From positions 1 to 26,401 of IMG/VR virus record IMGVR_UViG_3300024339_000074: a stretch of DNA of 26,401 nt; one strand, 5' to 3'. Numbering within the stretch: position 1 is the stretch's first letter; each line of letters starts with the position of its first letter. A program made the translations under genes and the position numbers. The notes under the pieces are model-generated. The model saw only the letters and a list, made by a program, of their open reading frames with translations, searched no databases and had not been told where the DNA came from. The DNA comes from a virus. Of the stretch, positions 401 through 5,058 are shown piece by piece.

Positions 401-2327
401 AGTATCCGGGAGTAATCATTCCTTCAGTAGGGACTCTTCCTGATAATGTAGAGTCAATTCCACCATAGTTAATGTTGTTGATAATGTTACCTGAGTTAGA
501 TGTATTGCCAGAGTTAATAACTCCAGTTTCTTTACCCTTACCAAATAGGTTAATATCTGAATCTGAACTTGGCTGGAGAGCTTGTGTACGAAGCTTTGTT
601 ACACGTTCAAGTACATCAGCTTGTGATTGTGTTTGGGCTCCAACGAATGTAGTATTAGGAGATAATAAGTCTAGTTTATCCTTGGTTGAATCCATTACAC
701 TAGAACCACTATTCTCAAGTTTATCAATCTCTTGTAATACTTGATATATGTCATACGCTGAGTACACTAATAATGCAGCTGTTAATAATGGTCCACCTAA
801 TACTGATCCTGCTAACAACGGCATCCGCATAGTGATCATACTAGCTAGTTTCTTCCAACCCATCTTAGCTGCTACTTTATTAGCTAATGAAAACAACTTC
901 ATAAAGGATGGACCAGAGGACTTCAATGCAGCTTTCTTAGCTGCGGTAGCAACAGCTTTCTTTTTAGTGGCTGAGACAGCCAACTTTTTAGATGCAACAG
1001 CGGCTGCTTTCTTGGCAGCTGCTTTCTTGGCAGCTTCTGCAGCTGCTTTCTTGGCTGCTTTCTTGGTAGCTTCTGCAGCTGCTTTTGCGGCTGCTTTCTT
1101 GGCAGCTTTCTTGGCAGCTGCTTTCTTGGCAGCTTCTGCAGCTGCTTTCTTGGCAGCTTTTGCGGCCAATTTCTTTTTAATTAGTGCATCAGCTGCTTTC
1201 TTAGCGGCATAGGCGGCAGCCCCTGTCTCTAATAAACCAGCACCAGTTGAACTCGGTACTACGGATTTAGGTATTACTCTATTACCACCACGACCACCCC
1301 TCTTACCGCTAGCACGAAGCACGATCTTTCTATTTTCCCTAGCTTCTTCTTTCCTTGCTAGTTTATCTCCTTTACCTTGATCCCTCAAGTCTTCTAACAG
1401 CATAACTGTCTTCTTACCTTGATCTACTTGAGTATCTTCCGCCTTTTTAGACTCGTGCTTGTTTGGGAGGTTTCCAATTAGTGTTTGCTGAACCTTTACG
1501 TGTTTCATGTACAGGTCAGCCATAGCACCTTCTCGTTGATCATCAGAAAGGTTAGCATCCCTAGTTATCTTAATGAATTCAGCCATAGCAGCCTGGTTAC
1601 CAGGAATAACCTTTTCCAGAGTATCAAGCATGTGTTTAGTTCTAGGATCATTTCCCTCGATTAAGTTATTATCTTTATCGAACTTCATGTCTTTAAAGAT
1701 GGCTTTAAGTACTGATAAATCGCGTGTTTGGGATTTGTCTTTAGTAGTCTTATCCCAAAGTTTTAATAATTCCTTCCTGGTTAGAGTCTCACCAGTTTCA
1801 GAGTTTTTAAATGAACCATTCTTATCGAGTCCTGAAACACTGGTTATGTTAAACTTTTCGAGGAAGTCCATTTGAGCCATACCTACAGAACGGTGTTTCT
1901 TAATGCCATCATTATGTTCTTTAGATGCAATCTTTAATCGATCAGCTTGTTGTTGTTTACTATTACCCATGAAGTCTGAATGAAATCTAATTACACCATC
2001 TCTAATAGCACGCAAGCCTGCTTCATTTCGAGCGTTCTGCTCAACCATGAACTTAGCTGAATCTTTATCAGTATCGACAAGTTCTCGAGTTTGCTTATCT
2101 GTTCTATCGATATTATCTTTGTTACTAACGCGGTCGTTAGCTAACTGCAATCCTTCAATTACGTTTAATACTTTAACGTTTTTGTTTAGTTCATCAAGAA
2201 CCTCTCTCAATTTATCAAAACCTCCTTCAAGGTTCTTCATTGAATTCTTAGACTTATCTAAAGTAGATTGCATTCTATTCTGCTGCTCTTTATTTTTTAG
2301 ACTTGATCCATTCCTATTTGCCGGCAT
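399..2327 (-). CDS. Probable tape measure protein (gp29-like role)
   Basis: This is a 642-residue protein starting at ATG 2327, with GAGGA about 9 bases upstream; it overlaps the end of the gp51-like frame by 14 bases. The first ~370 residues are charged and look mostly helical. Residues about 372-468 are almost entirely Lys/Ala blocks (KKAAAKKAAKKAAAKAAAE-type). Residues about 499-530 are hydrophobic (MPLLAGSVLGGPLLTAALL...) and could cross a membrane. The tail is Asn/Gly/Ser-rich and ends in ITPGY. I recognise no direct homologue. The tape measure call rests on position directly after the paired gp26/gp51 chaperone frames, on the helix-plus-membrane-segment architecture, and on a length close to T4 gp29 (590 residues). 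At about 1.5 Å per residue it would fit a tail near 95-100 nm. It could instead be another internal virion protein. Confidence 0.66.
   Translation of the reverse strand: MPANRNGSSLKNKEQQNRMQSTLDKSKNSMKNLEGGFDKLREVLDELNKNVKVLNVIEGLQLANDRVSNKDNIDRTDKQTRELVDTDKDSAKFMVEQNARNEAGLRAIRDGVIRFHSDFMGNSKQQQADRLKIASKEHNDGIKKHRSVGMAQMDFLEKFNITSVSGLDKNGSFKNSETGETLTRKELLKLWDKTTKDKSQTRDLSVLKAIFKDMKFDKDNNLIEGNDPRTKHMLDTLEKVIPGNQAAMAEFIKITRDANLSDDQREGAMADLYMKHVKVQQTLIGNLPNKHESKKAEDTQVDQGKKTVMLLEDLRDQGKGDKLARKEEARENRKIVLRASGKRGGRGGNRVIPKSVVPSSTGAGLLETGAAAYAAKKAADALIKKKLAAKAAKKAAAEAAKKAAAKKAAKKAAAKAAAEATKKAAKKAAAEAAKKAAAKKAAAVASKKLAVSATKKKAVATAAKKAALKSSGPSFMKLFSLANKVAAKMGWKKLASMITMRMPLLAGSVLGGPLLTAALLVYSAYDIYQVLQEIDKLENSGSSVMDSTKDKLDLLSPNTTFVGAQTQSQADVLERVTKLRTQALQPSSDSDINLFGKGKETGVINSGNTSNSGNIINNINYGGIDSTLSGRVPTEGMITPGY
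1011..1153 (-). repeat. Lys/Ala-coding direct repeats inside the tape measure gene
   Basis: A 44-base segment at 1011-1054 recurs exactly at 1110-1153, a spacing of 99 bases or 33 codons. Shorter copies of the same GCTTTCTTGGCAGC-type unit fill the surrounding ~940-1205. On the coding strand they encode KKAAAEAAKKAAA-type blocks. Exact in-frame repeats of this kind allow unequal recombination that changes protein length. Confidence 0.85.
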
Positions 2328-2448
2328 TTGCTATGTCCTCGTTAATTTGCTTAATAAGTAGACTAGTGTAAATTTCACGTTCCCAAGGGAGCATGTTATC
2401 CAACTCTAATAAACTGTATTTGTGCTCCTCCATCAACGAAAAATTCAT
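2314..2448 (-). CDS. gp51-like tail assembly chaperone segment (44 residues from its own ATG)
   Basis: This small frame reads MNFSLMEEHKYSLLELDNML and then PWEREIYTSLLIKQINEDIA up to TAG at 2316-2314. The YSL..LDNMLPWEREIY pattern is the kind seen in the short gp51-type hub assembly proteins that follow gp26 in T4-like phages. The frame stays open upstream of its ATG for 14 codons, back to the slippery run at 2496-2490. It is in the exact -1 frame of gp26. The ATG has AGGA directly abutting it with no spacer, inside a small TCCTA/TAGGA hairpin (2448-2460), so independent initiation looks poor. It is probably made mainly as the C-terminal part of a gp26 frameshift fusion of 292 residues (2314-3191). 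It overlaps the tape measure start by 14 bases. Confidence 0.78.
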   Translation of the reverse strand: MNFSLMEEHKYSLLELDNMLPWEREIYTSLLIKQINEDIANAGK

Positions 2449-2483
2449 CCTATAATAGGACTCTAATGATTCATGCGAAAGAG

Positions 2484-3191
2484 CTATATAAAAAAATCTA
2501 TAATTCCTGTGTAACTAAACTTCTCTTTATGTCCACACTTAGAACAAGTAAACTCACTTGAGTATTCTACGTATGGAGCCATTAATAAATAATCAACAGC
2601 TTGTTGAAACTGGGCATTACTAAACCCCTCTACAAACTCAATCCTTTCTTCAATTGGTGTGTCCGCTGCGTTATAGGTTTCTTCCCCATAATATACAACT
2701 GCTAAAGCTGTCGCGACACTTTTAATTAAAACTTCTGTATCTGAATCTTTACTATTATAATCAATTTTATTACCTAATGTAGGGTAATTCAATTCTAACG
2801 ATAAGTCGTCAGACAATCTAATAATACCGTCTTTAGGACTATGATCAATAACTGTTACTGTACTAATATCAATAGTAACATCATTACTAGCATCACACTC
2901 TACACAAGTCTTAAGAATATCAATCTTATCACCTACACTCTTACCGCGTAATTGTAAGAAGATGTATTCCAAATCACAATTGGTTAATGTATTAACATCC
3001 CCTTTATAATCCAAACACTCCGCCACCAGATCGATTAATGCTGTTTGAATTAGATCCGAGTCTTCTGACTCTGACGCAATCATTAATATCTTTTCTTCCC
3101 TAACTAAATAAGGTCTGTATGATACTCTCTCTTTCGTAGAGGGTATAATTAAACTGTACTTAGGTACAGATAACTTTGGTAATGTATTCAT
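2484..3191 (-). CDS. gp26: gp26-like baseplate hub assembly protein / tail assembly chaperone
   Basis: A 235-residue protein with GGAG 8 bases before ATG 3191; T4 gp26 is 208 residues. It looks like the T4 baseplate/hub family (Pfam T4_baseplate type): N-terminal LPKLSVPKYSLIIPSTKERV, a central region with CVEC (C96, C99), and a C-terminal CSKCGH pair (C216, C219). The two CxxC pairs could form one zinc site. In T4, gp26 acts with gp51 in hub assembly and is not a major part of the mature tail. Its position just before the gp51-like frame and the tape measure protein matches the G/T chaperone order of other tailed phages. The last codons form a slippery T heptamer, so some ribosomes should read through into the gp51-like frame. 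Confidence 0.82.
   Translation of the reverse strand: MNTLPKLSVPKYSLIIPSTKERVSYRPYLVREEKILMIASESEDSDLIQTALIDLVAECLDYKGDVNTLTNCDLEYIFLQLRGKSVGDKIDILKTCVECDASNDVTIDISTVTVIDHSPKDGIIRLSDDLSLELNYPTLGNKIDYNSKDSDTEVLIKSVATALAVVYYGEETYNAADTPIEERIEFVEGFSNAQFQQAVDYLLMAPYVEYSSEFTCSKCGHKEKFSYTGIIDFFI
2490..2496 (-). other. Putative -1 ribosomal frameshift site, T_TTT_TTT
   Basis: The minus strand reads GAT TTT TTT ATA TAG at the end of gp26. The seven T residues (2496 down to 2490) sit in the gp26 frame as a perfect X_XXY_YYZ heptamer, two codons before its stop. After a one-base backward slip, reading continues TAT ATA GCT CTT into the gp51-like frame without a stop to 2314. A TCCTA/TAGGA hairpin lies about 30 bases downstream, further than classic stimulators, so no normal stimulatory structure is evident. 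Confidence 0.75.
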
Positions 3192-4542: not shown

Positions 4543-4550
4543 TATTTATA
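4543..4550 (-). promoter_or_regulatory. T4-type late promoter for 3930-4514 and downstream minus-strand genes
   Basis: An exact TATAAATA on the minus strand, ending 28 bases before ATG 4514. The box overlaps the stop codon (4548-4546) of gp4. The transcript should start near 4537. It would drive the 194-residue protein, gp54, gp26/gp51 and the tape measure gene. Confidence 0.75.
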
Positions 4551-5058
4551 ACTTTTTTTTTACCTTTATCCTTTTAAAAGACTTCCATATCTTCTTACCG
4601 GTTTTGGTCTTGGATACTTTGTTCTTCATAGTCATTAAGTTAATACCAAATGACTCTAATGTATTCTCTGTCCAGATCTCAAACTTATAACCTCTATCAT
4701 CACAATACCTTTTAGCATACTTCCACTTAGAGGTATTCTTCATATAGGCTAAAGCTTCATTAAGGTTCTTTCTCTTAGGTGGTTGGGTTTGTTGGGCGGG
4801 TTTTATTTCAACCAAGACAACCTTTCCATCCATCCTCTTAATAGTTAAATCAATAAAATATCTATGAGGCTTCTTGTCAGTAGAACAAATGTATGGTATA
4901 ATGGTCTCTTCTGAATTCCACCACTTAACCCAACTTTGCTTTTCAATCCACTTAAAGGTTTGTTTCTCCCAATAGGATCTGTATGTAACCTTAGTATGAT
5001 CACCATTGTATTTTTCTGGATACTTAACTTTGTATTTTCCGCTGTAAGTTTTTCTCAT
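4546..5058 (-). CDS. gp4: gp4 head completion nuclease (TnsA-like PD-(D/E)XK fold)
   Basis: A 170-residue protein; T4 gp4 is about 150. It opens with GKYKVKYPEKYNGD and YRSYWEKQ, typical of gp4, and has the layout of TnsA N-terminal type endonucleases. Candidate catalytic residues are E31 in SYWEK, D70 in HRYFIDLTI, and E84/K86 in VLVEIKP, with SEETIIPYICSTDKKPHRYF between them. The C-terminal ~50 residues are strongly basic. In T4, gp4 (also called 50/65) acts after packaging to ready the filled head for tail joining. It is the first gene of the minus-strand block, behind an imperfect late box at 5095-5088. It has no Shine-Dalgarno sequence before ATG 5058. Confidence 0.85.
   Translation of the reverse strand: MRKTYSGKYKVKYPEKYNGDHTKVTYRSYWEKQTFKWIEKQSWVKWWNSEETIIPYICSTDKKPHRYFIDLTIKRMDGKVVLVEIKPAQQTQPPKRKNLNEALAYMKNTSKWKYAKRYCDDRGYKFEIWTENTLESFGINLMTMKNKVSKTKTGKKIWKSFKRIKVKKKL

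Follow-up and report, generated by a model that had tools for sequence, protein, structure and literature searches.

Does the tail gene locus of an uncultured marine T4-like virus hold two genes, homologues of T4 genes 26 and 51, or one gene with two products? The question is raised by the 26,401-nucleotide (nt) stretch analysed here (the window; positions 1-26,401 of the IMG/VR virus record IMGVR_UViG_3300024339_000074). On its minus strand a gp26-like gene (2484-3191, 235 amino acids (aa)) ends GAT TTT TTT ATA TAG, placing seven T (2490-2496) in the phase T_TTT_TTT one codon upstream of the zero-frame stop (TAG, 2484-2486), the heptamer that the original prediction had described. As it also proposed, reading on in the -1 frame leads through 14 codons to the first ATG and gives a 292-residue fusion (234 + 58 aa). 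This gp51-like frame (2317-2496), FF-YIALSHESLESYYR-MNFSLMEEHKYSLLELDNMLPWEREIYTSLLIKQINEDIANAGK, stays open for 56 codons beyond the gp26 TAG and ends at a TAG at 2314-2316. We put at roughly 0.86 the probability that gp26 is the short form of a tail assembly chaperone (TAC-N) and that ribosomes slip by -1 on T_TTT_TTT into the gp51 frame (TAC-C, which would be read only after the shift), giving the long form TAC-NC with the aid of an RNA stem.

Runs of seven T are unremarkable in the window (6 matches vs 12 expected), hence chance must be weighed by position and conservation. The site is conserved: an in-frame T_TTT_TT[T/C/G] stands 0-1 codons ahead of the gp26 stop in 80 of the 80 IMG/VR relatives first fetched, and after reduction to <80% identity (median pairwise 40%) the heptamer before the stop is kept in 36 of 36 lineages. 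The -1 frame extends 54-65 codons past the site in all of these 80 relatives except three (L016, L051 and L058), whose frames are shorter because the contig ends. Across the 36 lineages the residue ahead of Phe-Phe is Asp, Asn or Ser, with a codon always ending in T and never in C, and the first Phe codon of the slip site is always TTT; under each gene's own codon usage, and with shared ancestry ignored, the joint probabilities are ~10^-4.6 (T before Phe codons) and ~10^-6.6 (first TTT). The same site is common to the cultured phages HTVC008M, P-SSM2, S-T4, Melnitz-2, S-CRM01, Aeromonas P19, Vibrio K571, nt-1 and Rhizobium I1_9, and together with the open -1 frame it is conserved in marine T4-like, Vibrio, Aeromonas, Rhizobium and Pelagibacter phages. 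Most of the cultured gp26 loci examined, which belong to distinct lineages, keep it, the exception there being Vibrio D510. In the outgroups, Vibrio D510/K444 and Ackermannviridae, the -1 frame is open as well but the canonical heptamer T_TTT_TTN is absent; in PhaxI and KP6 (L093 and L094, 2750-2850 in each) a near-identical stretch, GAGATTTTCATTTAATTTTTGAAATTGATTTA, surrounds the stop and is possibly another kind of shift site. A larger set of 242 fetched loci (140 distinct alleles) was pre-filtered for TTTTTT and thus cannot gauge how universal the site is; within it the seventh base of the heptamer is T in 71 alleles, C in 58, A in 9 and G in 2, and the stop that follows is TAG in 97, TAA in 38 and TGA in 5. 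Aligning the region from gp26 end to gp51 start, the check suggested beforehand, revealed neither -1 stops nor loss of the slip site in this lineage.

Judged from its substitutions, the open -1 frame evolves as a protein, including the part upstream of any possible gp51 start. From the slip site to codon 50 it holds 0 stops in 42 diverse sequences, compared with 80 and 75 stops in the other two frames within codons 3-16 alone. Single-base codon changes in codons 3-16 are synonymous to nonsynonymous at 1055:660 in the -1 frame versus 360:1409 and 265:1559 in the other frames, counts that come from sequence pairs and hence are not independent. These codons stand upstream of the window gp51 ATG and carry a conserved LSH[DE] motif. 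Mean column identity is 63% for TAC-C vs 48% for gp26.

These data bear directly on the conventional view, by which gp51 is an independent gene translated from a start of its own and the T run arose by chance. Most databases annotate it in this way (P-SSM2, HTVC008M, syn9, S-PM2 and others), and the -1 open reading frame (ORF) of most alleles does contain an ATG. The annotated starts, however, vary among phages, lying +2, +5, +50, +53 and +56 nt from the gp26 stop, and the codons preceding the ATG behave as -1 frame protein; moreover, the -1 ORF of L042 has no ATG, GTG or TTG anywhere, so that independent initiation with the usual codons is impossible there, that of AerP19 has no start codon before codon 34, and in the window AGGA directly abuts the ATG. 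We consider an independently started gp51 very improbable. Hardly credible, in our view, is the production of the same fusion by transcriptional slippage of RNA polymerase on the T run: the window and 71 of 140 alleles do carry a 7-T homopolymer, but in the other 69 only six T stand before a C, A or G, and six T are short for slippage by a bacterial polymerase. The codon phase is in addition always X_XXY_YYZ, and an RNA stem lies at the distance usual for ribosomal shifts.

A 3' RNA structure located 5-9 nt after the heptamer is common, although not universal, at -1 frameshift sites, and the window combines the X_XXY_YYZ phase and the open, selected -1 frame with a 3' structure within this distance. 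Its trace is a family-wide, nucleotide-level constraint on -1 frame codons 5-7 (70 alleles), where Leu6 is CTN in 64 of 64 (CTY in 58) against a background with 56% TTR, Ser7 is TCN in 60 of 61 and Ala5 is GCC in 27 of 32; further on, AGG encodes Arg40 of the PWERE motif in 42 of 64, vs 11% in the background. Both stretches are complementary: counting from x, the first T of the heptamer, x+13..x+24 matches x+109..x+120, so that in most relatives the 5' arm, with its edge 6 nt past the heptamer (5 nt in the window), pairs ~85-107 nt downstream. The mean duplex energy of this arm reaches its minimum of -13.0 at offset +108 and is ~-1 to -4.5 at most other downstream positions. For 69 alleles the distant duplex averages -13.2, vs -5.9 for synonymous shuffles of both arms, and when x+7..x+129 is folded the best 8 of 12 pairs have a mean probability >0.5 in 92 of 120 alleles.

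The two arms also covary. Among 117 distinct rows the distant stem shows 63 double-change cells, vs 31 when shuffled and 1-24 when slid, with a covariation score of 0.144 vs 0.096. Pagel-type comparison of dependent with independent models on a FastTree chaperone tree yields p=7e-5 for x+17/x+116, p=1e-5 for x+14/x+119 and p=0.01 for x+13/x+120, three pairs selected once the pairing was already known from these sequences, while three control pairs at third positions give p=0.70-0.75. The change from G to C at x+120 (mostly Glu41 to Gln) occurs only alongside G at x+13 (17/17). A search of Rfam with window 2200-2700 returned no match. Two other candidate interactions were tried and set aside: an upstream Shine-Dalgarno-like stimulator, for which there is weak enrichment only, due to a few alleles (-0.68 +/- 0.22 kcal/mol vs synonymous codons), and a duplex between the 5' arm and a GG-rich stretch preceding the slip site, the latter pairing being weaker (about -7) and within the ribosome footprint.

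In the branch of the window the partner has a different position. The 5' arm GCTCTTTC (GCTCTATC in L109), common to the window allele (L098) and 13 others, pairs with x+57..x+72 to form a hairpin with a 5-nt spacer; these 14 alleles make up one clade on the tree (support 0.998), with no other allele within. The window hairpin, our proposed 3' frameshift stimulator, lies at 2424-2484 on the minus strand, starting 5 nt past the heptamer. Its 5' arm GCTCTTTCG (2476-2484), which bears the family-wide codon bias, begins with the last base of the gp26 TAG, and in the clade the pairing of the hairpin starts at this G; the local 3' arm TGGAGGAGC (2424-2432) occupies the M-E-E-H codons, with a duplex energy of -13.5 (p=0.005 vs synonymous shuffles). 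The minimum free energy of the hairpin is -20.6 kcal/mol (z -3.2 vs dinucleotide shuffles, z -4.7 vs synonymous shuffles), nine clade members have z values between -3.3 and -8.6 for the region under synonymous shuffling, and against such shuffles p<=0.02 is obtained for the local duplex in 14 of 14 clade alleles. The distant 3' arm position of most relatives, in the PWERE codons (2376-2387), is degraded in the window, where Arg is CGT and the distant duplex drops to -4.3 (p=0.63). The distant partner is also retained in six to seven of the 14 clade alleles, and the window subclade (L098, L102, L103, L005, L106 and L108) has the local partner only, so the simplest reading of the sequences is a history from distant to both to local. 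Both partners occur together in L107, L110, L152, L186 and L190, and Melnitz-2 has the distant one.

Candidate alternative partners in cultured cyanophages (HTVC008M p=0.005, S-CAM1 0.01, S-PM2 0.015, S-SZBM1 0.02) are suggestive and uncorrected for the number of phages tried; in HTVC008M (L082) a possible partner of the 5' arm TGCCTCTC is GAAAGAGGC, ~150 nt further along, about 171 nt past the slip site. The same search found none in syn9 and DSL-LC03, in a comparison that leaves out ACG-2014b and L229. These differing candidates suggest that the partner could have moved more than once. The spread of the stem in cyanophages is under-sampled, because the alleles were chosen for their similarity to the window proteins.

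Whether the stem stimulates frameshifting is a question of its own. It had been noted earlier that the gp51 ATG has a poor ribosome site and lies in a hairpin; the AGGATG start and the surrounding hairpin are real, but the hairpin is better read as a 3' frameshift-stimulating stem. The enclosure of the ATG by the window hairpin would also fit a stem that silences an internal gp51 start, or that has an unrelated role, e.g. in mRNA stability. Such a role we regard as unlikely, since the 5' edge stays fixed 5-6 nt from the heptamer while the partner moves, a constancy unneeded for hiding a start, and the slip site is kept in relatives without a usable early start. Taking the stem as a stimulator, it is conceivable, if doubtful, that it represents an unreported kind in phages, with a fixed 5' arm, a relocatable 3' arm within the TAC-C codons and a feedback that sets the TAC-N:TAC-NC ratio: the 3' arm would be read by every shifted ribosome, which would open the domain and thus lower shifting by the ribosomes that follow.

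The identity of the two proteins is derived from profile matches. The window gp26 matches PF12322 (E=1.4e-48, residues 10-234, 165.9 bits vs a gathering cut-off of 24.5) and phrog_150, and for the -1 extension phrog_634 ('baseplate hub assembly catalyst') aligns with residues 2-57 of a 64-aa junction peptide at E=5.7e-24, spanning the junction. In T4, where genes 26 and 51 lie on opposite strands, PF12322 recognises positions 1-201 of gp51 and phrog_634 its C-terminal part, and a single comparison of gp26 with gp51 gives a weak alignment (E=2e-6). By these matches the T4 proteins are paralogues, gp51 being a full-length gp26-like protein plus a TAC-C tail, so that T4 would have swapped the frameshift for two genes; T4 gp51 looks like the free-standing long form and T4 gp26 like the short one. 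The proposal that gp26/gp51 are the T4-type counterpart of the lambda G/GT chaperones, joined by frameshift in this lineage, is thus supported by the conserved site, the coding -1 frame and the T4 paralogy, and the pair very probably corresponds to the short and long chaperones TAC-N and TAC-NC. gp26 and TAC-C were each modelled alone with AlphaFold2, and the gp26 model (pLDDT 88) matches other gp26-type proteins; a sequence search of the PDB with the gp26 profile gave nothing meaningful. The CxxC cysteines C96, C99, C216 and C219 of gp26 are invariant or nearly so, and many relatives have weak zinc-ribbon profile matches, so such TAC-N proteins may be zinc-binding.

Several results weigh against this interpretation, on the protein as well as on the RNA side. 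Comparison of gp26 with lambda gpG by sequence and profile gave no match, and although the HK97 TAC (2ob9) has the highest probabilities among the Foldseek matches listed for the gp26 model against solved structures (0.54, 0.35), these matches are weak (E 0.66 and 1.6) and rank 10th and 13th by E-value, so the likeness of the model is suggestive only. RNAalifold on the 120-sequence alignment returned no consensus structure, though most single folds hold the stem, and for this reason named-pair counts and the phylogeny-aware test were used. Neither stem reaches the set threshold in 22 of 139 alleles, and the synonymous-shuffle tests count related alleles as independent. Within the window clade covariation is modest (8 double-change cells, with 4 of 500 shuffles as high), and with any partner position allowed the window pairing alone has p=0.095.

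Programmed shifts of this type have precedents. An abstract by Vladimirov, Gautam and Davidson from 2022 reportedly describes frameshifting as conserved in several T4-like groups. That study of T4-like TAC genes (Virology 2022, PMID 34826709) is cited by PMC10885494 for some T4-like phages having separate short and long TAC genes, and by PMC12846349 for poly-T slip signals in T4-like TAC-N genes; T4 itself was still listed in 2016 as the exception to G-T frameshifting (PMC5009743). Hence the probable frameshift in the window, put forward in the original prediction, is a further instance of a phenomenon that, according to PMC10885494 and PMC12846349, Vladimirov et al. (2022) had described before in T4-like phages. 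The genes and the poly-T -1 slip site are the same as in the T4-like TAC-N/TAC-NC reported there, whereas the window lineage is uncultured and marine, with a covarying stem and a partner switch. What looks new is the conserved stem past the slip site and its partner having moved in the branch of the window: no prior report of a downstream stem was found, including in the passages of PMC10885494 and PMC12846349 covered, the text of Vladimirov et al. 2022 lying outside the search.

Among other systems, the TAC of Vandenendeviridae/Andersonviridae (phage Adele) likewise has a -1 shift at poly-T at the TAC-N end and an open -1 frame in all genomes, but in other phage families and with a GTTTTT motif, and the text of that report (PMC12846349) makes no mention of hairpins, pseudoknots or stem-loops. 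Lambda G/GT (slip site GGGAAAG) and P2 E/E+E' resemble the window in having a short gene, a -1 extension and the tape measure gene next; they differ from the window gp26, whose slip site is right by its stop codon and which has cysteines of zinc-ribbon type and no detectable gpG similarity. The lambda-type chaperones are absent from virions (PMC5009743). T4 genes 26 and 51 encode homologous proteins (PF12322, phrog_150, phrog_634) but, unlike the window pair, are divergent, lie on opposite strands and are complete in themselves, which rules out a fusion by frameshift. With E. coli dnaX and retroviral-type -1 signals the window shares the heptamer, short spacer and 3' stem, whereas in most of its relatives the stem closes a domain of ~107 nt and has its 3' arm in conserved coding codons, and from lineage to lineage the partner shifts its place.

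Downstream on the minus strand, the predicted order TAC-N, -1 extension, tape measure protein is found at window 3191-399. The probable tape measure gene (399-2327, 642 aa), assigned by position and a weak phrog_339 match (E=4.8e-4), has its ATG overlapping the end of the -1 frame, and its product contains a long Lys/Ala-rich low-complexity stretch with KKAAAKKAA repeats. Elsewhere in the window, the protein of 4546-5058 has at its N-terminus an endonuclease domain like that of TnsA (PF08722, E=1.2e-15), and cultured relatives have a head completion (gp4) gene in this region. A run of nine T on the plus strand (4553-4561) lies at the 3' end of the same ORF (5058-4546, minus strand) and encodes Lys there.

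As to mechanism, we infer slippage, a stimulating effect of the stem and a chaperone role from the sequences. A fraction of ribosomes would slip by -1 at T_TTT_TTT just ahead of the gp26 stop and continue through the gp51 frame to make the long chaperone TAC-NC, and the stem, 5-6 nt past the heptamer and hence at the usual spacing of -1 stimulators, would slow the ribosomes and help the shift. By analogy with lambda G/GT, TAC-N would coat the product of the adjacent tape measure gene, and tail tube subunits would be recruited by TAC-C. It is thus very likely that gp26 and 'gp51' form a single gene with two products in this large marine T4-like group, which means that many annotated 'gp51' starts are probably wrong. 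For the family, the loci would form an evolutionary series of ways to keep the short:long pair, from a frameshift with a distant partner, through both partners and a local partner, to gene duplication in T4.

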